In this document: positions 5,171 to 50,087 of the stretch, piece after piece
Position numbering within the stretch: the stretch's first letter is position 1
How the letters are laid out: each line of letters opens with the position of its first letter
DNA from: Komagataeibacter oboediens
GTDB taxonomy: Bacteria > Pseudomonadota > Alphaproteobacteria > Acetobacterales > Acetobacteraceae
Length of the DNA: 64,000 nt
Direction of reading: 5' to 3'
NCBI RefSeq assembly: GCF_003207815.1
Contig: NZ_NKTX01000002.1
Span: 124,001 to 188,000 of the forward strand
The notes under the pieces: generated by a model
Database searches by the model: none
Told to the model about the DNA's origin: nothing
Seen by the model: the letters and a program-made list of their open reading frames with translations, nothing else
Translations under genes and position numbers: made by a program

Positions 5171-5196
5171 CGCATGGTCCTTGCGCGGGCGGTGGC

Positions 5197-8848: not shown

Positions 8849-8856
8849 TACGCGAC

Positions 8857-11150: not shown

Positions 11151-11178
11151 TCTTTCTCGAAAGAGAGCATCAAAAGGA

Positions 11179-11212
11179 AACCGGCCTTCCGAAAGGGGGC
11201 CGGTTTTTTTTG
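11179..11212 (+). terminator. Rho-independent terminator of fusA
   Basis: An aaccggcc/ggccggtt stem around a short loop, followed by eight T residues, begins about 28 bases after the fusA stop. Confidence 0.9.
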
Positions 11213-11622
11213 TGCCTGCCCGCAGGAAGCAGAAAATATGCGGTTGGATGGTGTCGTCAGATGTATGTAAGGAAAGTCGGTGGCTCCATGGCATGCGCGC
11301 GTGTCGTTCAGCACGGTTTTTTTGTGTCGGACCGGAAGCCGGTAACTGCCCTGCGGGGCTGTAGATGACTCAATCTGATCGAACGTTCATGGACAGCCGA
11401 ACGGTTTCGGGCATTGCGGCGTGTCATGAACGGTGCTGACGTTTCCCGCAGTTATACGATGGCCGCGCTCTCCCGCAGCGGTGACGGACGATACGCAGAT
11501 GGCGTGAACGGGCAGGGGAACGGTTTCCGCTGCCTGACAGCAGTATTCCGCCAGATGGGTTCGTCGTTCAGGTGACGGATGGGGCCCGGCCCGTTCGGGT
11601 GATGTGGCGCCGGGAAAGACGA
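11213..11622. other. Convergent intergenic region, no gene recognised
   Basis: About 410 bases between the fusA terminator and the end of the minus-strand metallo-hydrolase. Short open frames exist on both strands, but none has a good ribosome site or a recognisable protein. A short T-run near 11320 follows only a weak stem. I see no known RNA gene here. Confidence 0.5.
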
Positions 11623-12495: not shown

Positions 12496-15280
12496 GGTGC
12501 ATCACCCCGGTGCTGATTTCGCGCACCATCTGGAACAGTCGCTGCATCGGCTCGAAAATCTCGGTATATTCGCGGTGATAGGTGCCTTCCTGCCGGGGGC
12601 CGTGCGGTTCATGGAAATCAAGGTCGAAGCTGCCGTCCGAACGGTAGGGGAAGATCTGTTCCAGTTCCGCCAGCACGCCGGGGATTTCCAGGCACAGCAC
12701 CTTCAGCGTCAGCACATCACGCGAAAACGCATGCCGGGGTGAGAAATAGGGCACGCGCGTGGACAGCATCCAGATCTGCTCGATGATCGCGATGCGGATG
12801 GCATGCAGCAGCAGTTCATCGGGCTGCATGCGCGGGGCATCCGGCCATGCGCGGCGCAGTGCGAGGTGATCGGACTGGATACGCCGGAACATGGCCTGCG
12901 TGCTGGCCCAGAAATCAAGGTTTTCCAGCCCGTGCATAAGCGACAGGCAGGCTTCCTGCCGGGCCGGGTCCTTCTGCGTGGTGGCGCGTTCCAGCCACAT
13001 ATCGGGGTCCAGCAGCCGGATGACACCACGCAGCACGCCGTGATCGGAATGGGCCAGCCCGTGGGCGGCAAAGTCCATGGCGCGACGGAAACGGGGGCTT
13101 TCAGCCAGATATTTCTCGAACGTTTCGGGATGGCGCGCCGCCGCCGTGCCCAGCCCCTGCAATGTGTTCGCGCACCATGCAAGCTGCTGCAGGATGGCGT
13201 TGTTGGGAATGGCGCGAAGCTGGCTGGGGTGCTTGATGCGGGTCACGGTCGATGCCGCGTCGCTCTGTCGCGCGGACGGGCGCGATCCGGTCTTGTCGAT
13301 CAGCGATGGCCCGAACGCGCCCAGAAGGGCAGCGTAGCCAGGGTCTTCCACCAGCCCGGTCATGCCATTGGCGATGGTGGCGAAGAAATCGGCCGAAAAA
13401 TCGGGTTCGTCATAAACCGGGTCGCGGTCCAGCGTGGTGGTGGCGAAGGCATGTTCGGCAATGATGCTGACGGTGGCATCCGCCAGTGTCTGCGTGCCGA
13501 ACAGAAGGTAGCCGTCCCCGCCCTGAAAGGCCGTTTCCTCGCGCATCTGGATCCCTGCACGGGTGAAGCGCGCGCGGGCATGCGGCGGGGAAAGGTAGTC
13601 GAAACGGTCCGCCAGCCGGTAGGGGTGCGCGCCACGGCCAATGCTTTCGCCGTGGGTGTCGAACAAGATGACCTCCACAAACGCCAGGTCCCACTTGCGC
13701 AGCAGGTCGCATACCTTGATGCGCAGCCGTTCGATCAGGTAGGTCGCGGCCAGCTGGCCCACATACCGCCCGGAGTCGGAAAAGCCGAACTGCAGGCTGA
13801 GCTTGCGCGTGCGCTGCAGGTAGGCGCGCCAGTGGGGGGAGCGCAGGGCCTCCTCCATGATCTGCTCGCCGTTTTCCAGTGCTTCCTGCGTCTCGAACAG
13901 GGGCGAGATCTCGATCATGTCCTCCACCCCGTACAACCGCGCCAGCCATAGCGCGGTCAGCAGGGTGTAGCCGGTCTCGGTCTCGGCAATCAGGAAGCGG
14001 ATGGGGCTGGTGCGGTCGATGTGGCGCAGGATCTGGCGCACCGTCATCATCAGCCGTCCCGCGCTGGCCTGTTCCATCAGCAGCGATCCGAAGTCGATCT
14101 CGATCGGGGTCACGGTTTCCAGCGCTTCGTTCATGCGGCTGATCAGCGCGCGGCGCTGGGCCGGGATGTCGGGGTTGTCGGTAATGCCCAGACGCTGGCG
14201 GGCGATGTTATGCAGCTGTGTCGCGTTCAGGCGCGTATGCGTATGCGCCGCCGACAGGCCATGCGCCATGAAGCCCGCGCGCGCCACGACCAGCGCCATC
14301 TTGTCATCAGGGGCGGCGGCGTCGATCGCTTCGCTGAAGGCGGCGTTCAGGTCGTTGGTGCTGGTCAGCGCATCGGCGCTGCGGGTGATCAGCACATCGG
14401 CAAAGCGGGACACCGCCTCGGGTTCCGGCCCGGTGGGGCAGGCGGCGATCTGGGCGGCCACGGTGTCCAGCGCGGTCTGGATGCGGGGCAGCAGGTCGTT
14501 GGCGCAGCTTGTCACGGGTTCGATCTGGTCATGCAGGCGGGCAAGCTGCATTTGCTTCATGCGCAGCCGCAGGCGCAGCGTGTCCCACCACCCGATATCG
14601 GTGCGCCCGTCGGTATCGTAGCCGACCCAACTGGTCATGATGATGGGACGCGGCGCCAGCGTGGCCCACAGCTGCGGCCAGTGGGTCCGCGCTTCGGACA
14701 GCAGGATGGTGTTCAGCCGGTCCAGCGCGTTGCGCCCGCGCAGGATGGCCTGCGTCGCCAGCGTGAACTCCTCATCCAGCGTGGGCGGTCCCACGCGGCG
14801 GTGGGTCAGGAAGGCGGGCACGTGCGCCGGGGCCGTGGCAGGATTGGCGGAGGCAAGGTCCGCCAGCGCCTCGTATACCGGGTTGGCCAGCGCGAATGTG
14901 GGGTGCGCGGTAAACACGGCGGCGAAGCGGCTGCGTTCGATCGCGGCGCGGAAGCGGGCGATGGGCACGGGGCTGTCATCGGGGTCCGGCTGTACGATGC
15001 GACGGGCGACGTCACGCATGCGCGTGGCCACCGCCCCGTCCTCGGGGCCGTCCAGATAGGCGGCGATATGGTGCGCGCGCCCGGCAAAGGCCCGGTCGCG
15101 CAGCAGGCGCACGATTTCCTCCACCGTGTCCATCGACAGGGTGCCACCGGCCATCTGCCGGCCGATCTGACGCGCCAGCGCCATGACCGGGCTGCCGGTT
15201 GCGGTCTCGTCATGGCTGGTAATCAGTCGCTCCGCCTGGTGCAGCAGGTCAGAGACAGTCCGCGCGGCGGCTTCGGTCAT
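12476..15280 (-). CDS. ppc: Phosphoenolpyruvate carboxylase family protein, divergent
   Basis: A 934-residue protein colinear with bacterial PEP carboxylase, which makes oxaloacetate from PEP and bicarbonate to refill the TCA cycle. TAHPT at residues 124-128 carries the essential histidine. SWVGYDTDGRTD (217-228) replaces the usual GSWxGGDRDGNP, and GFSDSGRYVG (499-508) replaces GYSDSAKDAG. Around residues 541-550, DTHGESIGRG stands where the family has HGRGGSIGRG, so a catalytic arginine position is altered. The protein ends in glycine as usual, but without the MRNTG ending. The overall fold is clear; normal activity is not assured. It is divergently transcribed from the DUF445 gene. Confidence 0.82.
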   Translation of the reverse strand: MTEAAARTVSDLLHQAERLITSHDETATGSPVMALARQIGRQMAGGTLSMDTVEEIVRLLRDRAFAGRAHHIAAYLDGPEDGAVATRMRDVARRIVQPDPDDSPVPIARFRAAIERSRFAAVFTAHPTFALANPVYEALADLASANPATAPAHVPAFLTHRRVGPPTLDEEFTLATQAILRGRNALDRLNTILLSEARTHWPQLWATLAPRPIIMTSWVGYDTDGRTDIGWWDTLRLRLRMKQMQLARLHDQIEPVTSCANDLLPRIQTALDTVAAQIAACPTGPEPEAVSRFADVLITRSADALTSTNDLNAAFSEAIDAAAPDDKMALVVARAGFMAHGLSAAHTHTRLNATQLHNIARQRLGITDNPDIPAQRRALISRMNEALETVTPIEIDFGSLLMEQASAGRLMMTVRQILRHIDRTSPIRFLIAETETGYTLLTALWLARLYGVEDMIEISPLFETQEALENGEQIMEEALRSPHWRAYLQRTRKLSLQFGFSDSGRYVGQLAATYLIERLRIKVCDLLRKWDLAFVEVILFDTHGESIGRGAHPYRLADRFDYLSPPHARARFTRAGIQMREETAFQGGDGYLLFGTQTLADATVSIIAEHAFATTTLDRDPVYDEPDFSADFFATIANGMTGLVEDPGYAALLGAFGPSLIDKTGSRPSARQSDAASTVTRIKHPSQLRAIPNNAILQQLAWCANTLQGLGTAAARHPETFEKYLAESPRFRRAMDFAAHGLAHSDHGVLRGVIRLLDPDMWLERATTQKDPARQEACLSLMHGLENLDFWASTQAMFRRIQSDHLALRRAWPDAPRMQPDELLLHAIRIAIIEQIWMLSTRVPYFSPRHAFSRDVLTLKVLCLEIPGVLAELEQIFPYRSDGSFDLDFHEPHGPRQEGTYHREYTEIFEPMQRLFQMVREISTGVMHHVGAFG

Positions 15281-15433
15281 CGTGTTGTCCTGTCATGAAA
15301 AAACGTCATGGTTTCCCCAAATCCCATGTTCGGCGGCGGGCCGCAATGTCCACCATGGCATATTCACGCCTATTTGGCGCGTTACACCGAGTGTTGCTTG
15401 GGCTGGAGGGGAGACAATGGTATCAAGGACTTC

Positions 15434-16729
15434 ATGAACGGTATTCCACAAACGGATCAGGACGCGCGGCGTACGCTGCAACGTCACAAGCGGTCTGCGA
15501 CCGGCCTGCTGGCAGTCATGGCGGGACTTACGGTCGCGGGGTACGCCCTGCCGCAGATGGGCTGGCTTGCGGAACGTCCGTGGCTGGAAATCCTGCGTTC
15601 GGGCACCAAGGCCGGGGTCGTGGGCGGCCTTGCCGACTGGTTTGCCGTGACCGCGCTGTTCCGCAGGCCCATGGGCCTGCCGATTCCGCATACCGCCATC
15701 CTGCCCGCGCAGAAGGAGCGCCTGGCGCAGGCGCTGGGGCGGTTCGTCTCGACCAACGTGTTCACGGAACAGGAAGTCGCGGCCGCGTTCAGCCGCATCG
15801 ACCTGCCCTCCATCATCGGCAACATACTGCAGGAGCCGGAGACGCTGGACATGGTCAACCGCGCCGTGCTGGGGTCCGTGCCGCACGTGCTGGACCGGCT
15901 GGAGGACGGGCGGGCCAGTTCCGCCATCGCCCGTCTGCTGCCGACCCTGCTGGGGGGGGAGGAAATCGCCCCCGTCGTGACTCGCAGCCTGCGTGCGATG
16001 GTGGAAGGGGACTGCCATCAGGAAGTGCTGTCATTCCTGCTGTCGCGGCTGAAAGAGGGGATCAAGGCCAAGGAACCCGCCCTGCGCATGATGATCGAGG
16101 AACGCGTGCGCGAACAGGGTGGTCGCGTACTGGGCTGGGCCATTGGCGGGTCGATCGCGACCAAGGTGCTTCTGGCGGCGGGACAGGAACTGGACCGGAT
16201 CGACCCGCAGAATTCAGAATTGCGTGAGGGATTCACCACGTGGGTCCGCACCGAGATCGACCGTATCGAGCAGGACCCCGTGCGCCGGCGCGAAATTACG
16301 GACGCCGTGATGGGCGTGCTGACGCACGACAGCGTGCGCGGATGGAGCAGCGACGTCTGGCGCCGCCTGCGTCGCCTGATCGAGGAGGACATGAGCAAGG
16401 GGGACACCGGGTGGCTGTCCTCGCTCGTGCGTGATGCGCTGCAGCGTCTGGCGGACCAGATGTATCATGACGCCAGCATGCGCAAACGGGTCGAGGATGG
16501 CGCGCGCGGCATGATCATGGGCAGCCTGCCCTTCCTGCGGGACCGCATGTCGCGTTTTATTTACTCGGTCGTGAATGGCTGGGATGCAGAAAGCCTGAGC
16601 GACCGCCTGGAACTGCGGGTTGGCAAGGATCTGCAGTATATCAGGCTGAATGGCACGCTGGTCGGGTTTCTGGCCGGGTGTGGGCTGTCCGTGCTATTAC
16701 AGCTGATATTCGGAACCGGGATCGGATAA
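15434..16729 (+). CDS. DUF445 family membrane protein (YjiN-like)
   Basis: A 431-residue protein. A TM helix near residues 23-42 (GLLAVMAGLTVAGYALPQM) is followed by the DUF445 core, GTKAGVVGGLADWFAVTALFR, a long helical region, and a C-terminal TM segment (LVGFLAGCGLSVLLQLIF). The family is widespread in alphaproteobacteria and probably sits in the inner membrane, but has no settled function. The start was set at MNGIPQTD, which gives the usual family length and has an AAGGA site close upstream; 42 further in-frame codons upstream look non-coding. It ends 122 bases before the SUF regulator. Confidence 0.85.
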   Translation: MNGIPQTDQDARRTLQRHKRSATGLLAVMAGLTVAGYALPQMGWLAERPWLEILRSGTKAGVVGGLADWFAVTALFRRPMGLPIPHTAILPAQKERLAQALGRFVSTNVFTEQEVAAAFSRIDLPSIIGNILQEPETLDMVNRAVLGSVPHVLDRLEDGRASSAIARLLPTLLGGEEIAPVVTRSLRAMVEGDCHQEVLSFLLSRLKEGIKAKEPALRMMIEERVREQGGRVLGWAIGGSIATKVLLAAGQELDRIDPQNSELREGFTTWVRTEIDRIEQDPVRRREITDAVMGVLTHDSVRGWSSDVWRRLRRLIEEDMSKGDTGWLSSLVRDALQRLADQMYHDASMRKRVEDGARGMIMGSLPFLRDRMSRFIYSVVNGWDAESLSDRLELRVGKDLQYIRLNGTLVGFLAGCGLSVLLQLIFGTGIG

Positions 16730-16755
16730 GGCATGACCGCAGGGTACGATTGGAC

Positions 16756-16807
16756 TTGACGACGCGCGGCTGGTAGCCCATCTGAAACTTCAGGAAACAG
16801 TACTGTT
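16756..16807 (+). promoter_or_regulatory. Candidate promoter and operator of the SUF operon
   Basis: A TTGACG hexamer at 16756 could be a -35 box, although the matching -10 is weak. Downstream lies a perfect 12-bp palindrome, aacagtactgtt (16796-16807). An inverted pair attggac/gtccaat (about 16749 and 16811) brackets the segment. Rrf2-type regulators bind short imperfect palindromes in their own promoters, so this is a plausible site for the regulator encoded just after it. This is inference from position and symmetry. Confidence 0.4.
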
Positions 16808-16851
16808 CCGGTCCAATTAGCCATGGCCACCGGAACGGACGGGAGAGCGGA

Positions 16852-17313
16852 ATGCTGAAACTGTCGAAACTGACCGATTATGCCGTCGTGGCTCTGGTCC
16901 GGCTGGGGCAGAAGAACGAGGTCACGACCTCGCCTGTCCTGTCGCGTTCGACGGGCATCCCCGAACCCACCGTGGCCAAGGTGCTCAAGATTCTGGCGAC
17001 ACAGGGCATCGTGACCTCGCAGCGCGGGGCGCGTGGCGGCTACAGGCTTGCCCACCCGCTGGAGGAAATCTCGATCGCATCCGTGATCCAGGCGATCGAC
17101 GGCCCCATATCGCTGACGACATGCGTGGATGGCGGGGATTGTGACGCCCGTTCCACCTGTGGCCTGGGTGGCCAGTGGGACATGGTCAACGCTGCCATCC
17201 GCAACGCCCTGTCCGCCATTACGCTGGCGGACATGAAAAACCATACAGTCATTGACAGACTGGGCGGCCTGCAGGCGCCGTCCATGCCCGGCGGGCCCGC
17301 GGCCACGGCCTGA
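16852..17313 (+). CDS. sufR: Rrf2-family regulator of the SUF system
   Basis: A 153-residue winged-helix regulator. It starts [19 protein letters not shown] and has a recognition region ([16 protein letters not shown]) and the wing [11 protein letters not shown]. Three cysteines in [16 protein letters not shown] (C-x5-C-x5-C) match the Fe-S ligands of the IscR/SUF-regulator branch. The protein most likely senses cluster status and controls the operon that follows 19 bases downstream. It is the first gene of a tight cluster that runs to sufA. Confidence 0.9.
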
Positions 17314-17332
17314 AACAGGGGAGGAAAGACAC

Positions 17333-18823
<1,491 letters not shown>

Positions 18824-36024: not shown

Positions 36025-36250
36025 GTGCCCGTTTCCTACACGGAAAAATGACAACAACAATTCGTGCCATTAAAGTAATGATCACGTGATGTTGACGTAA
36101 ATGCCCTGGAACATGTCCTCACAGTAATGTTCACCCAAGAACACGGTTAAGTAACTGTTCCCTGCACCATGTTGGGTCTAGCATCCTGAAAGCCAGAGAT
36201 AAGTCGATAAAGACACCCGGTGGCGTATTAACAGGTTGGGAACACGGAAG
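36025..36250 (+). promoter_or_regulatory. nuo operon leader and promoter region
   Basis: This is 226 non-coding bases before nuoA. A perfect 10-bp palindrome atcacgtgat (36081-36090) directly precedes a TTGACG hexamer (36092-36097), which could be a -35 box with an overlapping operator. No convincing -10 was found at 16-18 bases, so the promoter call is tentative. I see no riboswitch-like fold. Confidence 0.35.
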
Positions 36251-36616
36251 ATGCATTCCGTTATCGCTGATTATTTGCCCGTACTTATATTCGGTTGCAT
36301 TGCAGTGGTGATCGCAGGGGCGATGCTGGGCAGTTCGCTGCTGTTTGGGCACCAGAAGCCCTACGCCGAGAAAACGTCCGCATATGAATGTGGTTTCGAG
36401 GCATTCGACAATGCACGTCATCGTTTTGACGTGCGGTTCTACCTGGTCGCGATCCTGTTCATCATTTTCGACCTGGAGGTCGCATTCCTCTTCCCGTGGG
36501 CTGTCAGCCTGTCACGGATCGGGTGGTTCGGGTTCGCGTCCATGATGGGCTTCCTGGGCGTTCTGGTGGTTGGCTTCATCTATGAATGGAGCAAGGGCGC
36601 GCTGGACTGGGATTGA
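36251..36616 (+). CDS. nuoA: NADH-quinone oxidoreductase subunit A
   Basis: A 121-residue membrane subunit of complex I with three TM helices. The conserved loop motifs are [20 protein letters not shown] and [14 protein letters not shown]. It lies next to the quinone-binding region together with NuoH and NuoJ. The ATG at 36251 gives the usual length; an in-frame TTG five codons upstream is the alternative. It is the first gene of the nuo operon. Confidence 0.96.
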
Positions 36617-36639
36617 ACATGACAAGGGGAGGCGCGCCA

Positions 36640-37221
36640 ATGGGCACCAACGATACATCCGGGCCGGACCGGCCCGCGGACAGCATTGCATGGAACCGCG
36701 AAATGCTGCCGCCGGGACCGCAGCAGGATGCGGTGATCAAGGGCATTACCGGTGAAATCACCGAAAAGGGCTTTGTAGTCGCAAGTCTGGACAAGCTGGT
36801 GAACTGGGGCCGCACCGGCAGCCTGTGGCCCATGTCCTTCGGGCTGGCATGCTGCGCGGTGGAAATGATCCATGCCTATATGCCGCGTTACGACCTGGAT
36901 CGCATGGGCATCATCCCGCGTGGGTCGCCGCGCCAGTCGGACGTGATGATCGTCGCCGGCACGCTGACCAACAAGATGGCGCCCGCCCTGCGCCGGGTAT
37001 ACGACCAGATGGCCGAGCCGCGCTGGGTCATCTCCATGGGGTCATGCGCCAATGGTGGCGGGTATTACCATTATTCCTATTCAGTGGTGCGCGGGTGCGA
37101 CCGCATCGTGCCGGTGGATGTATATGTCCCCGGCTGCCCCCCCACGGCAGAGGCGCTGATTTACGGCATTCTGCAACTGCAGAAGAAAATTCGCAGGACA
37201 GGGACAATCCGCCGTGGCTGA
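36640..37221 (+). CDS. nuoB: NADH-quinone oxidoreductase subunit B
   Basis: A 193-residue peripheral-arm subunit carrying cluster N2, the last electron donor to quinone. The ligand motifs are [18 protein letters not shown] and [10 protein letters not shown]. The ATG at 36640 was chosen because a GGGGAGG site lies eight bases upstream; an ATG seven codons earlier is less likely. The end overlaps the nuoC GTG start by eight bases. Confidence 0.96.
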
Positions 37222-37888
37222 TCCCGCAAACACTCCCCCCGTTGCCGTGGCCGGACCGCGCGCCGTGTCAGGCCCGCTGGGCGCCATTGCCTTTCGCCTG
37301 TCCACGGCCGTGCCGGGCATCATCTCGGCAGGGATCGAGAAGGGCGAACTGGTGGTACGCACCACGCGGCATCGTCTGCTCGATCTCATGACCATGCTGC
37401 GTGATGATCCGCGTTATGCCTGCCAGCAGGTCATGGATATCTGCGGCGTGGACTTTCCCGACCGGGCCGAACGGTTCGACGTGGTCTACAACCTGCTGTC
37501 CGTTACCCATAACCACCGCATCCGCGTGATCGTGACGACGGATGAAACATCTCCCGTGCCGTCCGTCCACCAGCTGTGGCCTGCGGCCACATGGTGGGAA
37601 CGCGAATGCTACGACCTGTTCGGCGTGCTGTTTACCGATCAGCCGGACCTGCGACGCATCCTGACCGATTACGGTTTTGAAGGGCATCCGCTGCGCAAGG
37701 ATTTCCCGCTGACCGGTTATGTCGAGCTTCGCTACGACGAGGACCGGCGGCAGGTGGTCTATGAGCCGGTCGATCTGGTGCAGGATTTCCGCAATTTCGA
37801 TTTCGAATCCCCATGGGAAGGCATCTTGACCCTGCCGGGTGACGAAAAGGCGCATGCCGACCGCCAGGACATGAAACGACAGGGATAG
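37214..37888 (+). CDS. nuoC: NADH-quinone oxidoreductase subunit C
   Basis: A 224-residue 30-kDa-type subunit, separate from NuoD as in alphaproteobacteria and mitochondria. The family signature [20 protein letters not shown] is followed by [12 protein letters not shown]. It starts with GTG inside the end of nuoB, which suggests translational coupling. It forms part of the connecting module of the peripheral arm. Confidence 0.96.
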
Positions 37889-37895
37889 GCGACAG

Positions 37896-39152
37896 ATGAG
37901 CGACGTAACCCTTCGTAGTGATACGGATATCCCCGACAGCCTTCTGCCCGAAGATACGGATGGAGAGGTGAAGCGCCATGTGGTGGAAATTGATTCTCAC
38001 GCACTGAATTTCGGGCCACAGCATCCATCCGCCCACGGCGTGCTGCGGCTGGTGCTGGAAATGGAGGGCGAGGTCGTCGCCCGGGCCATTCCGCATGTCG
38101 GCCTGCTGCATCGCGGCACGGAAAAGCTGATCGAATACAAGACGTATCCCAAGGCGCTGCCGTATTTCGATCGCCTCGATTACGTCTCGCCGATGTGCGA
38201 GGAGCAGGCCTTCGCGCTGGCAGTAGAAAAGCTGCTGAATATCGAGGCCCCGGAACGCGCCAAGTGGATACGGGTCATGTTTGCCGAGATCACGCGGATC
38301 CTGAATCATATCCTCAATCTGACCTCCTTCGGGCTGGACTGCGGCGCGCTGACGCCCGCGTTGTGGGGATATGAGGAACGCGAAAAGCTGATCGAGTTCT
38401 ATGAAGCCGCATCCGGCGCGCGGTTCCATGCCAATTACGTCCGCCCCGGTGGCGTGGCGCGTGACCTGCCTGCCGGGCTGGAGGAGCGCATTGCCGACTG
38501 GGCGCGTACCTTCCCCAAATGGATTGACGACCTTGAATCGCTGCTGACCAGCAACCGCATCTGGAAACAGCGCACGGTGGGCATTGGCGTCTTCACCACC
38601 GAACAGGCCCTGGCCTGGGGCTTCAGCGGTCCGTGCCTGCGTGCCTCGGGCGTGCCGTGGGACCTGCGCCGCAGCCAGCCCTATGACAATTACGACAAGG
38701 TCGAGTTCAACGTGCCCGTGGGCCGTCAGGGCGACTGTTACGACCGTTACCTCATCCGCGTGGCGGAGATGCGCGAAAGCGTGCGCATCATCAACCAGTG
38801 CCTTGAACAGATCCGCCCCGGCCCGGTGAAGGTGCGTGACCACAAGATCACGCCGCCGCCGCGCCGCGAAATGAAGCGGTCGATGGAAGCACTGATCCAT
38901 CACTTCAAGCTGTTTACCGAAGGCTATCACGTCCCGCCGGGCGCCACCTACACCGTGACCGAAACCCCCAAGGGCGAGTTCGGCGTGTATCTGGTGGCCG
39001 ATGGCAGCAACCGGCCGTATCGCTGCAAGATCCGGCCCACGGGTTTTTCCCATCTCCAGGCAATCGACGAGATGTCGCGCCGGCACATGCTGGCGGATGC
39101 CGTGGCCATTATCGGGTCGCTCGACCTGGTATTTGGTGAGATTGACAGGTGA
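37896..39152 (+). CDS. nuoD: NADH-quinone oxidoreductase subunit D
   Basis: A 418-residue 49-kDa-type subunit that forms the quinone pocket with NuoB. Typical motifs are [34 protein letters not shown] and [20 protein letters not shown]. The C-terminus ends in the conserved [12 protein letters not shown]. The start has a GGGATAGG site. Canonical in length and sequence. Confidence 0.97.
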
Positions 39153-39157
39153 CCGAC

Positions 39158-39808
39158 ATGTCCGTCCAGCCCAGCGCGCCCGAAGGCGCGGAACCGACCC
39201 GGTTCGAATTTGATTCCGAGAGCGAACAGCAGATCGCGACCATCCTTGCCAAGTATCCGCCTGAACGCAAGGCAAGCGGCGTGCTGCCGCTGCTGTATGT
39301 CGTGCAGAAGCAGATGGGCCGCCAGACCGGCAGCGCATGGATCCCCCGCGTGGCCATGGATGTGGTGGCCGCGCGGCTGGAAATGGCCCCGATCCGTGTT
39401 TACGAGGTCGCGACCTTCTACCTCATGTTCAATACGAAGCCGATCGGCCGGTACCACCTGCAGGTCTGCACCACCACGTCGTGCTGGCTGCGCGGGTCGG
39501 ATGACGTGACGGCGGCGTGCAAGGCGGCAACGGGCATCCGGGCGTTTGGAGAGACCAGCGCCGACGGCCTGTTCACCCTGACGGAGGTCGAATGCCTTGG
39601 CGCCTGCGCCAACGCCCCGATCCTGCAGGTTGATGATGATTATTACGAGGATCTGGATGGCCCGCGCACGGAAGAACTGATCGAGGCGCTGAAACGTGGT
39701 GAACGCCCCACGCCCGGCCCCACCATCGATCGTCTGAACTCCGCCCCCGCCGGTGGGCGCAGGGTGCTGGTGGATGACGCGACGCACAAGCCGCAGGGGC
39801 AGGGGTAA
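39158..39808 (+). CDS. nuoE: NADH-quinone oxidoreductase subunit E
   Basis: A 216-residue 24-kDa-type subunit with the 2Fe-2S cluster N1a. The cysteine motifs are [11 protein letters not shown] and [10 protein letters not shown]. The ATG at 39158 is eight bases after ACAGG; the GTG at 39149, overlapping the nuoD stop, is an alternative. The last 45 residues are a loose Pro/Gly-rich tail. It works with NuoF in the NADH-oxidising module. Confidence 0.95.
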
Positions 39809-39813
39809 GGATC

Positions 39814-41139
39814 ATGCTGCAGGACAAGGACCGCATCTTCACCAACCTGTATGGCCAGAATGACTGGCGGCTGGCTGGCGCCCGTGCCCGTGGCGACTGG
39901 AACGGTACGGCCGACATACTGGCGCGCGGGCCGGACGCCATCATTGCCGAGATGAAGGCATCCGGCCTGCGTGGGCGCGGGGGGGCCGGTTTCCCCACCG
40001 GGGTCAAATGGTCGTTCATGCCCAAGAAGAATGACGGCCGGCCGCATTACCTCGTCATCAATGGCGATGAGTCGGAACCGGGGACCTGCAAGGACCGCGA
40101 AATCCTGCGCCACGACCCGCACAAGCTGGTGGAAAGCGCGCTGATCGCATCCTTCGCCATGGGCGCGCATGCGGCCTACATCTACATCCGTGGTGAGTTC
40201 TATAACGAGGCCATGCACCTTCAGCACGCCATTGACGAGGCGTATGAAGCCGGCCTGATCGGAAAGAACGCCTGCGGGTCGGGCTGGGATTTCGACTTCT
40301 ACATCCATCGCGGTGCCGGTGCCTACATATGCGGCGAGGAAACCGCCCTGCTGGAAAGCCTGGAGGGCAAGAAGGGCCAGCCGCGCATGAAGCCGCCTTT
40401 CCCGGCGGCGATGGGTCTGTATGGCTGCCCCACCACGGTCAACAATGTCGAAAGCATTGCCGTTTCCGCCACCATCCTGCGGCGGGGGGCGGCATGGTTT
40501 TCGGGGCTGGGGCGGCCCAACAACGCAGGCACCAAGCTTATGGCCATATCGGGCCACGTCAACACGCCGTGCGTGTTTGAAGAAGAGCTGGGCGTCCCCA
40601 TGAAGGATCTGATCGAAAAGCATGGCGGCGGTGTGCGGGGCGGGTGGGACAACCTGCTGGCGGTCATCCCCGGTGGCTGTTCGGTGCCCATGCTGCCGCG
40701 CGATGTGTGCGACACCGTTCTGATGGATTACGACAGCCTGCGCGCCGAAGGCTCCGGCCTTGGCACCGGCTGCATGATCGTGATGGACAAATCCACCGAC
40801 ATCATCGCGGCGATCGCCCGGTTCTCGAAATTCTTCAAACATGAAAGCTGTGGCCAGTGCACGCCGTGCCGCGAGGGCACGGGATGGATGATGCGTATCA
40901 TGGAACGCATGGTCGAAGGTCGCGCCGAGATCGAGGAAATCGACATGCTCGAACAGGTCACCCGGCAGGTAGAGGGACACACCATCTGCGCACTGGGTGA
41001 TGCGGCGGCATGGCCGATACAGGGGCTGATCCGCCGGTTCCGTCCGGTCATGGAAGAACGCATCCATGCCTACAAGGCCGCCCATGGCGGCACGCGGCCC
41101 GTGCAGGTGCCTGCGGGCCTGGTTGAAGCTGCGGAGTAG
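39814..41139 (+). CDS. nuoF: NADH-quinone oxidoreductase subunit F
   Basis: A 441-residue 51-kDa-type subunit that binds NADH, FMN and cluster N3. The nucleotide-binding region shows [18 protein letters not shown] and [20 protein letters not shown]. The N3 ligands are in [12 protein letters not shown], with a further cysteine in [15 protein letters not shown] site precedes the ATG. Canonical. Confidence 0.97.
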
Positions 41140-41144
41140 GAACA

Positions 41145-43211
41145 GTGGTAAAAGTAACCGTTGACGGTCTTCCGGTCGAAGTGCCCGCAGGTTCCTCCGC
41201 CCTTCAGGCGTGCGAGGCGGCGGGTAAGGAAATCCCGCGTTTCTGTTATCATGAACGCCTGTCGGTGGCGGGGAACTGCCGGATGTGCCTGGTCGAGGTA
41301 TCGGGCGGGCGCAAGCCGGTAGCGTCCTGCGGCTTCCCCATCGGGGAGGGGATGCATATCTTCACCGATACCGAAGTCGTGCGCCGCGCCCGCCGCGCGG
41401 TGATGGAATTCCTGCTGATCAACCACCCGCTGGACTGTCCCATCTGTGACCAGGGCGGTGAATGCGACCTGCAGGATCAGGCATTCGGCTATGGCGCGGA
41501 CCATTCCCGCTACCGTGAAAACAAGCGGGCGGTGACCGACAAATATCTCGGCCCGCTGGTCAAGACGGTCATGACGCGCTGCATCCAGTGCACGCGCTGC
41601 ATCCGGTTTTCGACCGAAATCGCGGGCGTGCCCGAACTGGGCGGGGTTTCGCGCGGTGAAAACCTGGAAATCACCAATTATGTTGAAAAGGCCCTGACAT
41701 CCGAACTGTCGGGCAACCTGATTGACATCTGCCCCGTGGGCGCACTGACATCGCAGCCCTACGCCTTTACCGCCCGGTCATGGGAACTCAGGCGCACGGA
41801 CTCGATCGATGTCTGTGACGCGGTGGGAACCAATATCGTCATGCATGCCCGTGGGGCGGCGGTGCTGCGCATCGTGCCGCGCATCAATGACGAGGTGAAC
41901 GAGGAATGGCTGTCGGACAAGGGCCGGTTCGTGGTCGATGGCTTCCGCCGCCGTCGCCTTGACCGGCCATGGGGGCGGGTGGACGGCAGGCTCCAGCCCG
42001 CAAGCTGGCAGGATGCCTTTTCCACCATCGCCACGCGGCTGAAAAACGTACCGGGGGAGCGCATTGGCGCGATCGCGGGCGACATGTGCGATGCCGAAAG
42101 CATGATGGCGCTGAAGGATCTTATGGAAACACTGGGGTCCAGCAATATCGACTGCCGTCAGGACGGGGCGAAATACGATACGTCGCGCCGCGACTTCTAT
42201 ACGTTCAACAGCGGCATTACCGGCATCGAGGATGCGGACGCGCTGCTGATCGTAGGCACCATTCCGCGGCAGGAAGCCCCGGTGCTGAATGCCCGCATCC
42301 GCAAGCGCTTCCTTGCTGCCGGACGGGGTGGCTTTCCCATCGCCATGATCGGCGCGCCCAATGCCGACCCGACCTATGCTGCCACGGTCCTGGGCGAGGG
42401 GCCGGACACGCTGGCGAAGCTGGCCGCAGGTGAACTGCCGTTCGCCGATGTGCTGAAAAACGCGAAAAACCCCATGGTCATTGTCGGTCACGGCGCACTG
42501 ACCCGCCCCGATGGACAGGCAATTGCAAAGGCATGCTGGGACCTGGCGGTGCAGGTGGGGGCGATCACCGCCGGCTGGCACGGCTTCAATGTCCTGCATA
42601 CGGCCGCCAGCCGGGTTGCGGGACTGGACCTTGGCCTTGTCCCCGGAACCGGGGGGCGTGACGTGGCCGGCATGCTGGATGGCGGGGTGGATGTGCTGTG
42701 GCTGCTGGGCGCGGATGAATTCGCGACCGACCGTATCGGCCCGGAAACATTTGTCATCTATCAGGGACATCATGGCGACGCGGGGGCCGCGCGGGCGGAT
42801 GTGATCCTGCCCGGCACGCTGTATGCCGAAAAGCCGGGGACCTACACCAATACCGAAGGGCGGGTGCAGGAAGCCTTCCGTGCCATCATGCCGCCCGGTG
42901 ACGCGCGGGAAGACTGGCGCATCCTGCGGGCGTTTTCCGAAGTGGCGGGACGCAAGCTGCCCTATGACACGCTGGAGGCCCTGCGTGCACGCATGGCGCG
43001 GGCCAATCCCGTATTCGGGCAACCGGCGTGGGTGCGCCACGGCACGACAGACACCACCGCGCCACAGGCGGGGCCGGTGTCCGTGTCCAGCGACCCGTTC
43101 CGCCCGGTCATTGCCGATTATTACCTGACCCATGCCGTGTGTCGCGCCAGTCCCACCATGGAAACCTGTTCGGGGATTTACGTGCATCCCGCAATCGAGG
43201 CGGCGGAGTAG
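41145..43211 (+). CDS. nuoG: NADH-quinone oxidoreductase subunit G
   Basis: A 688-residue 75-kDa-type subunit. The N-terminal ferredoxin-like part carries N1b ([20 protein letters not shown]). Next come the N5 histidine/cysteine region ([15 protein letters not shown]) and N4 ([12 protein letters not shown]). The molybdopterin-enzyme-like C-terminal domain follows, without the N7 cysteines, as in mitochondria. It starts with GTG six bases after the nuoF stop. It links the NADH module to the connecting module. Confidence 0.96.
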
Positions 43212-43216
43212 GCAAG

Positions 43217-44239
43217 ATGGCAGATTTCTTCTTTCACACCACGCCTGGCCAGCTTCTGCTGATCGTGCTGGAAACGCTGGCGGTGCTGGTGCCGCTGCTG
43301 CTGGGGGTTGCGTACCTGACACTGGCCGAACGCAAGGTGATGGCCGCCATGCAGTTGCGCAAGGGGCCGAACGTGAACGGTCCGTTCGGCGTGCTGCAGG
43401 CCTTTGCCGACGCGATCAAGATGCTGACGAAGGAAACGGTGATCCCGTCGGGTGCGAACAGGATGCTGTTCCTGTTCGCGCCATTCCTGACGTTTTCGCT
43501 GGCCATGGTGGCGTGGGCGGTAATCCCGACGGGTAACGGGCTGGCTATCGCCAACATCAATGTGGGCGTGCTGTACCTGCTCGCGATTTCCTCGCTGGGT
43601 GTTTACGGCATCCTGATCGCGGGGTGGGCGTCCAACTCAAAATACGCCTTCCTTGGCGGCCTGCGCTCTGCCGCGCAGATGGTGTCGTATGAAGTATCCA
43701 TCGGGCTGGTGATCGTGTCGGTCCTGCTGGCGGTGGGTAGCCTCAATCTCAATGACATTGTGCTGGCGCAGCGCAATGTGTGGTTCTGCCTGCCCATGTT
43801 CCCGATGTTCATCGTGTTTTTCATCTCGGCCCTGGCCGAGACCAACCGCGCGCCATTTGACCTGCCGGAAGGCGAAAGCGAACTGGTGGCAGGCTTCTTC
43901 GTCGAATATTCCGCACTGGCGTTTGGCCTGTTCTTCCTGGGGGAATACGCGAACATGTTCCTTATGTCGGGCATGGTCAGCATCCTGTTCCTGGGGGGAT
44001 GGCTGCCGCCGCTGGGGATCGCGCCCTTTACGTGGATACCGGGGCCGCTGTGGCTGATCGCGAAGATCCTGTTCTGCCTGTTCGTGTTCATCTGGGTGCG
44101 CGCGACATTTCCCCGCTATCGCTATGACCAGCTCATGCGGCTGGGGTGGAAGGTATTCCTGCCGTTCTCGCTGGCGTGGATGGTGCTGAGCGCGGGGTTC
44201 CTGATGGTAACGGGCCTTCTGCCCGGAGGAGCAGGCTGA
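43217..44239 (+). CDS. nuoH: NADH-quinone oxidoreductase subunit H
   Basis: A 340-residue membrane subunit with eight TM helices that forms most of the quinone tunnel. Conserved stretches are [39 protein letters not shown] and [20 protein letters not shown]. The ATG lies five bases after the nuoG stop. The stop overlaps the nuoI ATG by one base (TGATG). Confidence 0.96.
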
Positions 44240-44727
44240 TGGGTACCTTAAGCAAAGCCGCCCGGTCCATGCTTCTGTCCGAACTGGTGACGGGCATGAG
44301 CGTGACACTGAAGGCGTTTTTCAAGCCGAAGGCCACGATCAATTACCCTTATGAAAAGGGCGTGCTGTCACCGCGTTTCCGTGGCGAACACGCGCTGCGC
44401 CGTTACCCCAACGGGGAGGAGCGCTGCATTGCGTGCAAGCTGTGCGAGGCGACATGTCCCGCCGAAGCCATCACCATCGAGGCCGAACCGCGTGATGACG
44501 GCTCGCGCCGGACCACGCGTTACGACATTGACATGACCAAGTGCATCTATTGCGGCCTGTGCGAGGAAGCCTGCCCGGTCGATGCGATTGTCGAAGGCCC
44601 GAATTATGAGTTCGCGACCGAAACGCGCGAAGAACTTATGTACAACAAGGACAAGCTCCTGGCCAATGGCGACCGCTGGGAAAGCGTTCTCGCCCGCAGG
44701 CTCGAGCTTGATGCCCCGTACCGCTGA
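44239..44727 (+). CDS. nuoI: NADH-quinone oxidoreductase subunit I
   Basis: A 162-residue ferredoxin-like subunit carrying clusters N6a and N6b. The two motifs are [12 protein letters not shown] and [12 protein letters not shown]. The N-terminal helix anchors it to the membrane. Translation is probably coupled to nuoH through the TGATG overlap. A 78-base gap follows before nuoJ and holds the small upstream ORF described separately. Confidence 0.96.
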
Positions 44728-44785
44728 CACCGCACGGCGGATGCGGCGCAGGCCGCCCCCGCCATGCCAGCAGGAGGAAACATCC

Positions 44786-44809
44786 ATGCGGCAGGAAGCT
44801 CACCCATGA
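44786..44809 (+). CDS. Seven-codon upstream ORF coupled to nuoJ
   Basis: The ATG lies eight bases after a perfect AGGAGG (44772-44777). The frame reads seven codons (MRQEAHP) and stops at a TGA that overlaps the nuoJ ATG as ATGA. The site is stronger than nuoJ's own GGAAG. Ribosomes ending here could restart on nuoJ. It may be a remnant of a misplaced start rather than a real peptide. Confidence 0.35.
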   Translation: MRQEAHP

Positions 44810-45579
44810 TGACCCAGATTGTCTTTTACGTCTTTGCGGCGGTGCTGGTCCTGTCCGCCACCATGGTGGTGTGCGCGCGCAACCCCGTGCATTCGGTGCT
44901 GTTCCTGATCCTTGCGTTCTTCAACGCGGCGGGGCTGTTCCTGATTGCGGGGGCCGAATTCCTCGCCATGACGCTGGTGATTGTCTATGTCGGCGCCGTC
45001 GCGGTGCTGTTCCTGTTCGTGGTCATGATGCTGGATGTCAATTTCGCGCAGATGCGTGAGGGCGTGCAGCGCTATGCGCCCATTGGCGGCGTGGTTGGCG
45101 GCGTGCTGCTGGTTGAACTGATCATGGCGTTCACCCACTGGCGGGTGGCCTCCAACATAGGTCAGATCAGACACCTTGTCCCGTCCTCGCCCGAGCGCAC
45201 CAATACCGCGGCACTGGGGGACGTGCTGTACACTCATTACATCTTCCTGTTCCAGTCCTGCGCGCTGGTGCTGCTGGTGGCCATGATCGGCGCGATCGTG
45301 CTGACGCTGCGTGACCGGCCCACCGGACGCCGGCAGGACATCGACCGACAGCACGACCGCACGCCGGCCGACAGTCTGGAAATGCTGCAGGTTCCGCTGG
45401 GCGCGGGGGTGGCGGCGCAGGGCGGTTTCCTGCGCCCGCACACGTCATATGACGTGGCGTCGGTGCCCGGCAGCTATGGCACCGAAGCGTGGCGTGAACA
45501 GGGAGAGGAAGAAGAAACACAGACCGCGCTGGTGATCATTCCCCCCGCGGCAGGTACGAAAGGACAGGACGATGCATAG
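44806..45579 (+). CDS. nuoJ: NADH-quinone oxidoreductase subunit J, long C-terminal tail
   Basis: A 257-residue membrane subunit; typical NuoJ has about 180-210. The N-terminal 165 residues hold five TM helices, including [19 protein letters not shown], the pi-bulge helix region of the family. From about residue 170 there is a hydrophilic tail of some 85 residues, rich in charged residues and including [11 protein letters not shown]. Two adjacent ATGs are possible (44806, 44809). The last eight bases overlap nuoK. Confidence 0.94.
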
Positions 45580-45895
45580 CGCGATTGAGGGCATTGGCCT
45601 GGCGCCATACCTGAGCATTGGCGCGATCCTGCTGGTGCTGGGCGTGTTCGGTATTTTCGTGAACCGAAAGAACGTCATCATCATCCTGATGTCGATCGAA
45701 CTGATCCTGCTGTCGGCCAACATCAATTTCGTGGCGTTTTCAGCTGCCACCGGCGACCTGTCGGGGCAGGTGATGACGCTGTTCGTACTGACCATCGCGG
45801 CGGCGGAATCCGCCATCGGGCTGGCCATTGTCACGGTCTATTTCCGTAATCGCGGCTCGATCGAAGTCGATGATATCACGATGATGAAGGGGTAA
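45572..45895 (+). CDS. nuoK: NADH-quinone oxidoreductase subunit K
   Basis: A 107-residue, three-TM subunit, homologous to MrpC. The signature [20 protein letters not shown] carries the conserved membrane glutamate, and [17 protein letters not shown] carries the second. These residues take part in proton transfer. It starts within the end of nuoJ and ends five bases before nuoL. Confidence 0.96.
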
Positions 45896-45900
45896 GGGAA

Positions 45901-47838
45901 ATGCAGACGGCATCCTTCCTTTTTGAAGTGGCGGTGTTCGCGCCCCTGATCGGCTTCCTGGTGGCGGGCTGTTTCGGGCACCTCATGGGTGATAACGCGG
46001 CGCGGTTCACCACCATTGCGCTCATGACCTGCGCAGCACTGTCGGCCATTGGCGTGCTGGGGTTCGAGATGGGCGACGTGGGCACGTTTGTCGTGCCCGT
46101 GGCCGACTGGATCCATGCCGCCGGCTTCCGGGCCGACTGGCAGCTGCGCATGGACATGCTGTCGGTCAGCGTGGTGGCCATGGTCACGGTGGTGTCCCTG
46201 CTGGTGCATGTGTACAGCGTGGGCTACATGGCGCATGAGGCGCGGCCGGTGTACCGCTTCTTTTCCTACCTGTCGCTGTTCACGTTCGCGATGCTCATGC
46301 TGGTGACATCGGACAACCTGCTGCAGCTGTTCTTCGGCTGGGAAGGGGTAGGCCTGGCGAGTTACCTGCTGATTGGCTACTGGTATGACCGGCCATCGGC
46401 CTGTGCCGCCGCCATCAAGGCGTTCGTGGTCAACCGCGTGGCGGACCTGTTCTTCCTTGTCGGTATCTCGCTGGTCTTCATCCGGCTGGGCAGCGTGTCG
46501 TATGACGATATTTTCGCCGCCATCCCCTACCATGTGAATGATACGTTCGTGCTGTTTGGCACGCATCCGCTGTTTGAAGTCATCGCGACGCTGCTGTTCA
46601 TCGGGGCCATGGGCAAGTCGGCGCAGCTGTTCCTGCATACGTGGCTGCCCGATGCGATGGAGGGGCCGACCCCGGTCTCCGCCCTGATCCACGCGGCGAC
46701 CATGGTGACGGCGGGCATCTTCCTTATGGTGCGCATGTCGCCGCTGGTCAGCCTTGCACCCGTCACGCGCGACCTGATCGTGCTGGTGGGCGGCACTACA
46801 AGCTTCTTTGCCGCAACCGTGGGGCTGGTCCAGCCTGACATCAAGCGCACCATTGCCTATTCCACCTGTTCGCAGCTTGGCTACATGTTCGTGGCCGTTG
46901 GCGTGGGGGCGTATCAGGCGTCAATGTTCCACCTGACCACGCATGCGTTCTTCAAGGCGCTTCTGTTCCTTGGCGCGGGCTGCGTGATCCATGCCGTGCA
47001 TGATGAGCAGGACATGTTCCGCATGGGCGGGCTGTGGCGGAAGATCCCCTTCACCTATGCTGCCATGTGGATTGGCAGCCTTGCGCTGGCGGGTATCTTT
47101 CCGTTCGCCGGGTACTGGTCGAAGGATGCGATCCTCGAGGCCGCATGGATGTCGGACAGCGGCATGGCCCATTATGGCTGGGTCATGGGGTGTGTGACCG
47201 CATTCCTGACCGCGCTGTATAGCTGGCGCCTGATCTTCCTTGTGTTCCACGGCACGCCACGGGATGCGCACCTGCATGACGGCGCGCATGAAAGCCCGGC
47301 ATCCATGCTGGTGCCGGTGGGGCTGCTGTCGGTTGGCGCGGTGGTTGCGGGCGTGGTGCTGGCGCCATTCTATATCGGTAGCCATCAGGCCGCGTTCTGG
47401 AATGGGGCGATTGCCGCCATTCCCGGCCATGACGTGATTGAACGCCTTGAACAGACGCCCGGCTTCATCGCGCTGGTGCCGACATTCGCCGCCGTATTCG
47501 GCATTGTCGTGGCCTATGTCTGCTATATCGCAAGCCCCGGCATTCCAGCGGCTCTCGCACGCAGCCTGCGTCCGCTTTACCTGTTCCTGCTGAACAAATG
47601 GTATTTCGACGAACTGTATGACGTGGCCATCATCCGTCCCTATCGCGCGATTGCGCGCCTGTTGTGGAAGGGCGTGGATGAGGACGTGGTCGAGGGCATA
47701 CCCGAAGGGCTGGCCCGCCTGACCGCAGGCAGCGCGGGGCAGGCCGTGCGCATCCAGACCGGGTCCATGGCCGTCTATGCCTTTTCCATGCTGATCGGGC
47801 TGGTGGTACTGCTGACCACCATGCTGTTCTTCCGCTAA
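45901..47838 (+). CDS. nuoL: NADH-quinone oxidoreductase subunit L
   Basis: A 645-residue antiporter-like subunit, the distal proton channel of complex I. Conserved parts are LFFGWEGVGLASYLLIGYWY, KSAQLFLHTWLPDAMEGPTP and the C-terminal NKWYFDELYDV, diagnostic for NuoL rather than NuoM. A lateral-helix region follows at the end. The frame is full length, so it is not a fusion that has absorbed NuoM. The next gene, 26 bases on, is nuoN. Confidence 0.97.
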   Translation: MQTASFLFEVAVFAPLIGFLVAGCFGHLMGDNAARFTTIALMTCAALSAIGVLGFEMGDVGTFVVPVADWIHAAGFRADWQLRMDMLSVSVVAMVTVVSLLVHVYSVGYMAHEARPVYRFFSYLSLFTFAMLMLVTSDNLLQLFFGWEGVGLASYLLIGYWYDRPSACAAAIKAFVVNRVADLFFLVGISLVFIRLGSVSYDDIFAAIPYHVNDTFVLFGTHPLFEVIATLLFIGAMGKSAQLFLHTWLPDAMEGPTPVSALIHAATMVTAGIFLMVRMSPLVSLAPVTRDLIVLVGGTTSFFAATVGLVQPDIKRTIAYSTCSQLGYMFVAVGVGAYQASMFHLTTHAFFKALLFLGAGCVIHAVHDEQDMFRMGGLWRKIPFTYAAMWIGSLALAGIFPFAGYWSKDAILEAAWMSDSGMAHYGWVMGCVTAFLTALYSWRLIFLVFHGTPRDAHLHDGAHESPASMLVPVGLLSVGAVVAGVVLAPFYIGSHQAAFWNGAIAAIPGHDVIERLEQTPGFIALVPTFAAVFGIVVAYVCYIASPGIPAALARSLRPLYLFLLNKWYFDELYDVAIIRPYRAIARLLWKGVDEDVVEGIPEGLARLTAGSAGQAVRIQTGSMAVYAFSMLIGLVVLLTTMLFFR

Positions 47839-47864
47839 CCCCAGGGACGTCAGGGCCAATACCA

Positions 47865-49289
47865 ATGAACTGGACACTTGCGCTGCCTGAAATCGTGCTG
47901 GCCCTGTCGGGGCTGGTCATCCTGCTTGCCGGGGTGATGCAACGGCGCGGGCAGGCCTTCTTCTCCTGTGCGATGATGACGCTGCTGGCCCTGGTGGTTA
48001 CCGGCATCCTTGTCGTGTTTTCGCCCGATGGCACCGGCTACAGCCATATCTTCATCAATGACGGCTTTGCCCGTTTCATGAAGGTGCTGAGCCTGACGGG
48101 GGCTGCGCTGTCGGTTGTGCTGAGCGTGGGATATGCGCGGGAAATGGAAATCGACAAGTTCGAATTTCCGGTCCTGATCCTGTTTTCCACGCTGGGCACG
48201 ATGATCATGGCGTCCTCGGGCAACCTCATGACGCTGTTTGTCGGGCTGGAACTGTCCTCGCTGTCCATCTATATCCTGTGCGCCTTCGCGCGTGACCGGG
48301 TGACGGCGGCAGAGGCAGGGCTGAAGTATTTCGTGCTGGGGTCGCTGGCGTCGGGGCTGCTGCTGTATGGCATCTCGCTGGCGTACGGCTTTGCCGGGAC
48401 GATGGAATATGCGGGCCTGCAGCAGGCGGTGCGCGGCAGCGCGGTGCTGCCGGCGGGGCTTATGGTGGGGATCGTGTTCGTGCTGGTGGGGCTGTGTTTC
48501 AAGCTGTCCATGGTGCCGTTCCATATGTGGACGCCCGATGTGTACCAGGGCGCGCCCACGTCGGTCACCGCGTATATGGCCGGTGCGCCCAAGATCGCGG
48601 CCTTTGCCGTGCTGCTGCGTGTCATGGCCGGGCCCTTTGGCAGCATGACGCCGCAGTGGCAGCTGCTGATCGAGGTCGTGTCCGCCGCTTCCATGGTGTT
48701 CGGCTCGCTTGCGGCCATTCCGCAGGGAAACATCAAGCGGCTGATGGCGTATTCCTCCATCGGGCATATGGGCTACGCCATGATCGGCATGGCGGCGGGC
48801 ACGGCGGAGGGCACGCGTGGCACGCTGGTCTATCTGGTGACCTACCTGTTCATGAATGTCGGCGCGTTCGCGGGTATTGTCGCCATGCGCCGCAGGGGGC
48901 GGGCGGTCAGCCAGATCAGCGACCTGTCCGGCCTGGGCCGTACCGACCCGGGCATGGCGCTGGCCATGGCGGTGTTCATGTTCTCCATGGCGGGGGCGCC
49001 GCCGCTGGCGGGGTTCTTTGGCAAGCTCATGGTGTTCTATGCCGCGATCAACGCGCATCTTTACGCGCTGGCGGCAATTGGTATCGTCAGCAGCGTGATC
49101 GGGGCGTATTACTATATCCGGATCGTCAAGATCATGTTTTTCGATGCCGCTGCCCCGGCGCTGGACCGCTCGCCTGTTTCCGTCTCCTTCGTATCGGTGG
49201 GAATGGGGCTGGTGACCACGTTCTTCGTGGTGGGGCTTGGTCCTGTCGCGACAGCAGCACAGGCGGCGGCGAGCGCACTGTTCAGGTAA
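47865..49289 (+). CDS. nuoN: NADH-quinone oxidoreductase subunit N
   Basis: A 474-residue antiporter-like subunit with about 14 TM helices. It begins WTLALPEIVLALSGLVILLA, typical for NuoN. Further motifs are LFVGLELSSLSIYILCAF, KLSMVPFHMWTPDVYQGAPT and AYSSIGHMGYAMIGM. NuoM would have a different N-terminus and a longer chain, so the gene following nuoL is N and not M. It ends three bases before birA. Confidence 0.95.
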   Translation: MNWTLALPEIVLALSGLVILLAGVMQRRGQAFFSCAMMTLLALVVTGILVVFSPDGTGYSHIFINDGFARFMKVLSLTGAALSVVLSVGYAREMEIDKFEFPVLILFSTLGTMIMASSGNLMTLFVGLELSSLSIYILCAFARDRVTAAEAGLKYFVLGSLASGLLLYGISLAYGFAGTMEYAGLQQAVRGSAVLPAGLMVGIVFVLVGLCFKLSMVPFHMWTPDVYQGAPTSVTAYMAGAPKIAAFAVLLRVMAGPFGSMTPQWQLLIEVVSAASMVFGSLAAIPQGNIKRLMAYSSIGHMGYAMIGMAAGTAEGTRGTLVYLVTYLFMNVGAFAGIVAMRRRGRAVSQISDLSGLGRTDPGMALAMAVFMFSMAGAPPLAGFFGKLMVFYAAINAHLYALAAIGIVSSVIGAYYYIRIVKIMFFDAAAPALDRSPVSVSFVSVGMGLVTTFFVVGLGPVATAAQAAASALFR

Positions 49290-49292: not shown

Positions 49293-50087
49293 ATGACCCA
49301 GCCCGCCATCTGCCCCTCCGTCGTGTCCATACCCCGTGGCAATGGGGGGGCATGGCGGATGGAGGTGCATGACAGGCTGGGATCGACATCCGACCTGTGC
49401 AAGAACCGGCTTGATGCAGGGCAGGGGGAGGACGGTCTCGCCATCCTGGCGCTGAAACAGACGGCGGGACGGGGCAGCCGGGGACGGGAATGGCATGATC
49501 CCGGTGGCAACCTGGCCCTGTCCATCATGCTGGTGGGACCCGGGGCGGTGGTGCCGGTGGGGCTGTGGCCGTTCATCGCCGGTCTGGCGCTGCATGACGC
49601 CATGGCAGGTTATGTTCCCCCGGGTCACGCGCTGGAACTGAAATGGCCCAATGACCTGCTGCTGGATGGCCGGAAGATGGCCGGTATCCTGATCGAGACC
49701 GGAACGGAAGGCGGCGTGTCATGGCAGGTGATCGGCATTGGTGCGAACCTGCGTGGCAGGCCTGATATCGCCGGCCGCGCGCTGTCCTGCCTGGCGGATT
49801 GCGGGGGAGACGTGCCTGCGGCGCCCGAGATGGCGCGCGCCCTGCTGCACCATCTTGACCTGTGGCTGGCGCGGTATGGCGCGCATGGCTTTGACGCCAT
49901 ACGCGCGGCCTGGCTGGAACGTGGGCACGCGATTGGCACCCCCATCCGGGTTGCGGCGGGAAACCAGCAGTTTACCGGCACGTTTGCAGGACTGGAGGAT
50001 GACGGTATCCTGCTGCTGCGTACGTCCGCGGGTGTGCGGCGCGTGGTGACGGGCGAGGTGCTGCTGGCCCCGGTGAACCGAGAATAA
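49293..50087 (+). CDS. birA: Biotin-[acetyl-CoA-carboxylase] ligase, class I
   Basis: A 264-residue biotin protein ligase. The biotinyl-AMP loop is GRGSRGREWHDPGGNLALS and the core motif is KWPNDLLLDGRKMAGILIE, followed by VIGIGANLRG. The C-terminal SH3-like domain is present (GTFAGLEDDGILLLRT). There is no N-terminal DNA-binding domain, so it cannot act as a repressor as in E. coli. It starts three bases after nuoN, the usual alphaproteobacterial order. Confidence 0.95.
   Translation: MTQPAICPSVVSIPRGNGGAWRMEVHDRLGSTSDLCKNRLDAGQGEDGLAILALKQTAGRGSRGREWHDPGGNLALSIMLVGPGAVVPVGLWPFIAGLALHDAMAGYVPPGHALELKWPNDLLLDGRKMAGILIETGTEGGVSWQVIGIGANLRGRPDIAGRALSCLADCGGDVPAAPEMARALLHHLDLWLARYGAHGFDAIRAAWLERGHAIGTPIRVAAGNQQFTGTFAGLEDDGILLLRTSAGVRRVVTGEVLLAPVNRE

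Follow-up and report, generated by a model that had tools for sequence, protein, structure and literature searches.

A passage on Acetobacter pasteurianus lists the complex I genes of this species as nuoA-nuoN (APT_01737-APT_01725) together with a separate nuoM (APT_00690) (PMC5158111). In a proteomics paper on the same species, NuoM bears the number 1610, far from the 3342-3354 of the operon subunits (PMC10742644), and by our reading of that passage the gene numbers imply a detached nuoM. Two kinds of nuo operon, one of them possibly obtained through horizontal transfer, are described for acetic acid bacteria in a passage on Asaia, where the tree was built on nuoHIJKLN and nuoM was omitted (PMC4596401). 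Nuo subunits are mentioned as plasmid-borne in K. saccharivorans in an excerpt of PMC12361115, and an operon with nuoCD and nuoM is mentioned for G. diazotrophicus in an excerpt of PMC9368920; as nuoCD is fused, the operon in that excerpt would be of the E. coli-like kind. For NuoM of E. coli itself, residues K265 and E407 are named in a passage of PMC9271201.

Here, we analyzed a stretch of 64,000 nucleotides from Komagataeibacter oboediens (NZ_NKTX01000002.1, positions 124,001 to 188,000; hereafter the window), in which nuoL is followed directly by nuoN. We are highly confident that this locus encodes the ordinary alphaproteobacterial complex I of Komagataeibacter, from which nuoM has been relocated, most simply once, and that the complex most likely assembles normally with three pumps.

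Results

The nuo genes of the window lie on the forward strand. Eleven consecutive open reading frames at 36236..45895 match NCBIfam models in the order nuoA-B-C-D-E-F-G-H-I-J-K, the order given in the sequence-only reading. Start codons are those of the ORF list, and for several frames, including nuoB, nuoH and nuoI, this start lies well upstream of the model match; the NuoA match is below its curated cut-off (104.4 vs 155 bits). These genes are followed by nuoL (45901..47838, +), which codes for a full-length protein of 645 amino acids (TIGR01974, 777.9 bits; NF005141, 773.9 bits; both above cut-off), and by nuoN (47865..49289, +), which codes for a full-length protein of 474 amino acids (NF004440, 593.8 bits, above cut-off). 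As the sequence-only reading had also noticed, NuoL is complete and contains the stretch YFDELYD, and nuoL and nuoN are arranged head to tail with 26 bp between them (47839..47864, +). Both the open reading frames and the NCBIfam matches confirm that nuoM is absent from this junction, which is its place in most relatives, and the canonical order with nuoM between nuoL and nuoN is thus not found in the window. Directly 3' of nuoN lies a gene for a birA-like biotin ligase (49293..50087, +; TIGR00121, 134.4 bits), which does not belong to complex I and bounds the nuo genes on this side. Among the 14 core subunits of complex I, the 13 other than NuoM are all encoded here, NuoA by way of its match below the cut-off.

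Three explanations had been offered for the missing gene from the sequence alone: that nuoM lies elsewhere in the genome, that the complex has only two antiporter-like subunits, or that about 1.5 kb were lost in the assembly. The first is the one that held. A genome-wide search with PF00361 (Proton_antipo_M) gave seven matches, namely nuoL and nuoN of the window, an L, M and N set on contig C177, a weak match on contig C201 and a full-length single gene on contig C99. The C99 gene is located outside the window on the reverse strand (G000:C99:31343-32884, corresponding to L008:7343-8884), and its product of 513 amino acids passes the NuoM models NF004499 (593.6 bits, cut-off 585) and TIGR01972 (553.7 bits, cut-off 263.8). 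With this full-length NuoM, the set of 14 core subunits is present in the genome. The C201 match (G000:C201:56919-57155, L007) reaches 19.5 bits, which is below the cut-off, and falls within an open frame of 599 amino acids.

The detached nuoM is found 133 bp downstream of mutL, reads in the same direction and is convergent with the gene for topoisomerase IV subunit B. A scan for sigma-70-like promoters around nuoM found 0, against 0.6 expected by chance. The proximity to mutL was surveyed at 41 loci, which comprised our own, 28 from named genomes and 12 from further Acetobacteraceae. At 34 of these, the best mutL alignment stops 104-174 positions ahead of the nuoM match and has the same direction. 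mutL lies about 2 kb from nuoM at two further loci (L055 and L056), and partial mutL alignments are found 0.9 to 3 kb away at L057, L090 and L095 and 7.2 kb away at L091. At L099, mutL is absent from the stretch that was read and is located on another contig of the same genome (G117). The window's genome thus has the split arrangement that combines the nuoL-nuoN junction with a detached nuoM, in most cases close to mutL.

Contig C177, which is 39 kb long, encodes another complex I, of the E. coli-like kind, with its own consecutive L, M and N (L009, G000:C177:16001-36000, at about 4951-18541). It is likewise an NADH-quinone oxidoreductase, and its NuoM has NF004498 as its best model, compared to NF004499 for the detached protein. 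We infer that it belongs to the possibly horizontally gained one of the two nuo kinds described in the Asaia paper. G. diazotrophicus, for which an E. coli-like operon was mentioned above, also has a detached NuoM (L057). Since the genome holds this second L-M-N set, the set could in principle supply NuoM to the complex of the window. At a threshold of E <= 1e-40 for PF00361 matches, a second set is present in 12 of 19 genus genomes and absent from the other seven, all 19 of which have L, N and the detached M. In those seven only three matches (L, N and M) are found, so that the detached gene is their sole NuoM. The split operon thus exists without any second set, and the detached NuoM clusters with Acetobacteraceae NuoM in the tree, which rules out a supply from C177 as a general explanation and makes it extremely improbable here.

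To what extent the arrangement is shared was determined in several samples. A scan of named genomes with the detached NuoM protein as query recovers close relatives only; its 28 loci belong to Komagataeibacter, Novacetimonas, Gluconacetobacter and one Acetobacter. The nearest of them are from Komagataeibacter, in agreement with the Acetobacteraceae suggested in the sequence-only reading. In the family sample, NuoL and NuoM both exceed the thresholds in 107 of 120 Acetobacteraceae genomes; nuoM directly follows every nuoL in 88 of the 107, 13 are split and six are undecided at contig ends. A class sample of 142 Alphaproteobacteria genomes, from which two Acetobacteraceae were omitted, contains 112 with both genes, and nuoM adjoins nuoL in 111 of these; the remaining one (G183) is interrupted by a contig end. 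The contig ends were checked for seven apparent splits (G019, G050, G065, G069, G105 and G114 in the family and G183 outside it). In six, the nuoL match reaches to within 111 bases of the contig end. In G105, 515 bases of contig remain after nuoL, and an incomplete nuoM opens another contig. As the contigs break there, all seven were scored as undecided and not as split. Two class genomes, G138 and G234, have a NuoL but no NuoM over the threshold, and are uninformative because only 649 and 2 bases of contig, respectively, remain 3' of nuoL. The opposite, NuoM without a NuoL over the threshold, is seen in G155 and G181 of the class and in G007 and G098 of the family. Outside the family, one alphaproteobacterial genome has a second NuoM without an adjacent NuoL over the threshold (G194:C40:14238-15674), along with a joined set on contig C77.

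The junction itself was read in 30 split genomes, the 13 of the family set, which include the window, and a further 17 from the genus. In 30 of 30, nuoN lies directly 3' of nuoL, with gaps of -1 to 70 bp (starts placed by script). These comparisons bear on the suggestion that about 1.5 kb with nuoM were dropped at the junction. Such a loss is conceivable in a draft assembly, and this one comprises 278 contigs. However, the junction lies inside a contig of 215,613 bases and recurs with the same layout in all 30 split genomes, and is therefore no assembly fault. In addition, nuoM exists elsewhere, and in five genus genomes (G060, G123, G130, G131 and G135) nuoL and the detached nuoM are both found on a single contig of 2.9-3.5 Mb. 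We therefore reject an assembly loss, the probability of which is next to nil.

The origin of the detached gene was addressed with trees of NuoM and of NuoL+NuoN, which contain the same 48 rows, among them 16 split rows of the 30 available, and which come from quick searches with SH-aLRT support only. In both trees the 16 split rows form one clade with a support of 100 inside the Acetobacteraceae, and a constraint that grouped the joined NuoM rows of the family without the split ones was rejected (p-AU 2e-5). Branch lengths were compared on one fixed NuoL+NuoN topology, a choice that can lengthen NuoM branches. Scaled to the remainder of the tree, the stem of the split clade measures 0.066 in NuoM, 0.027 in NuoL and 0.009 in NuoN, a ratio at the relocation of about 2.4 between NuoM and NuoL and of 7.5 between NuoM and NuoN. 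The NuoL stem is itself raised over that of NuoN, which could reflect joint change of neighbours. Within the split clade NuoM evolves somewhat faster (0.589 vs 0.403 for NuoL and 0.381 for NuoN), and 32 columns are fixed differently in the detached and the joined NuoM proteins. NuoM thus seems to have changed fast at the time of the move, which a brief spell as a spare duplicate would explain, and given the long stem branch some functional change of NuoM may have occurred then.

The same long stem, if not inflated by the choice of topology, and the same 32 columns could also mean that the gene next to mutL is a diverged copy or a foreign gene, which took over before the operon copy vanished. 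The NuoM tree speaks against this, as it places the detached gene inside the Acetobacteraceae. Together with the p-AU of 2e-5 this placement makes a donor from outside the family unlikely, although long branches can mislead, and a foreign source is thus not supported. A duplicate that arose within the lineage is conceivable, but it would function in the same way. Overall, we regard a diverged copy or foreign gene as an unlikely origin, and favor the relocation of the operon's own nuoM.

The detached nuoM is under purifying selection, with a dN/dS of about 0.08. Median values for 171 non-independent pairs from the 19 genus genomes are 0.084 for nuoM, 0.075 for nuoN and 0.121 for nuoL. The four charged residues of the NuoM pump line, Glu, Lys, Lys and Glu, are conserved in all 58 detached rows, representing 43 distinct sequences, and in 66 of 66 joined rows. 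They were located by motif and by alignment to the solved structure 8qby, and not by direct alignment to the E. coli protein.

These observations are relevant to the idea of a complex with only two pumps, L and N, in which the distant NuoM-like protein has another job. L and N do stand alone in the operon, and the branch that leads to the split clade is longer in NuoM than in NuoL or NuoN. Yet the distant protein exceeds the NuoM cut-offs and has the pump residues, its gene is selected about as strongly as nuoN, and all 30 split genomes examined combine the operon with a conserved, full-length nuoM. Proteomic ratios quoted in a passage on A. pasteurianus point in the same direction: 0.62/0.33/2.16/1.78 for NuoM, 0.33/0.20/2.54/2.40 for NuoC and 0.93/0.31/2.22/2.12 for NuoN (PMC10742644). 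In this related genus NuoM tracks the operon subunits in direction, which supports its expression and either joint control or joint stability. With a NuoM found on C99, we reject a two-pump complex and consider it highly improbable.

We also searched 15 genomes of relatives that lack the split operon, eight sampled family genomes whose sole complex I is joined and E. coli-like and seven more without any NuoM match. When about 1.5 kb were read on each side of mutL in these genomes, a nuoM was found near mutL in 0 of 15. In a MutL tree, the 15 together with G029 and G116 form one group with a support of 100, which is placed among the split genomes. The forks that put this group inside the split rows have a support of 87, the starred branches do not force the placement, and a constraint holding the split rows together was not rejected (p-AU 0.12). 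The split operon and the distant nuoM are thus absent together, in about one group, and these sequences suggest a likely joint loss of operon and nuoM in these relatives. The relocation reading does not depend on such a joint loss. G029 and G116 are small genomes with a joined L-M-N set (L080 and L081), whose L, M and N share only 35-46% identity with whichever of the two kinds found here matches better, and their complex I is perhaps a third, separately gained kind.

Discussion

We propose that an ancestor of the core acetic acid bacteria moved nuoM out of the operon, most simply in a single event; the gene now lies 3' of mutL and reads in the same direction. Thirteen subunits would be supplied by the operon of the window and NuoM by the distant gene, and together they would most likely form a normal complex, with the three antiporter-like subunits in the order N-M-L. 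On this basis we expect the distant NuoM of this species to be expressed and incorporated into the complex, and pumping to be normal.

A location outside the operon might also mean that the supply of the central pump subunit is set independently, and that certain conditions, such as strong periplasmic oxidation or acid stress, lead to forms of complex I with fewer working pumps. We consider this very unlikely; if it were true, such a shift would have left its mark in the fast change that NuoM, and to a lesser degree NuoL, underwent at the relocation. Under the relocation reading, a defective or two-pump complex I should not be assigned to such genomes by annotation pipelines or in metabolic models. 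It looks as if a core respiratory gene was relocated once across a whole bacterial group, and this relocation could be used to ask how assembly copes with one subunit made elsewhere in the genome.

Among openly licensed papers we found none that discusses the relocation itself, which is weak evidence of absence. What is already in print, in the passage on A. pasteurianus, is a detached nuoM in a relative, given without comment. Its detachment in one clade, the site next to mutL through most of that clade and the coincident fast change of NuoM were not found described in the open-licence literature. In that passage the layout is the same as here, an operon without nuoM and nuoM elsewhere, but it concerns a different genus, and the passage lists the genes without mention of mutL or of an origin (PMC5158111).

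Compared to solved complexes, the detached NuoM has its best relative in 8qby_M, an alphaproteobacterial NuoM (436 bits over residues 12-494), and the alignment shows the same pump residues in both proteins. 8qby_M is presumably from Paracoccus denitrificans. The difference lies in the position of the gene, as nuoM adjoins nuoL in 111 of the 112 sampled Alphaproteobacteria outside the Acetobacteraceae, whereas here it is found next to mutL; apart from this relocation, the complex appears to be an ordinary one.
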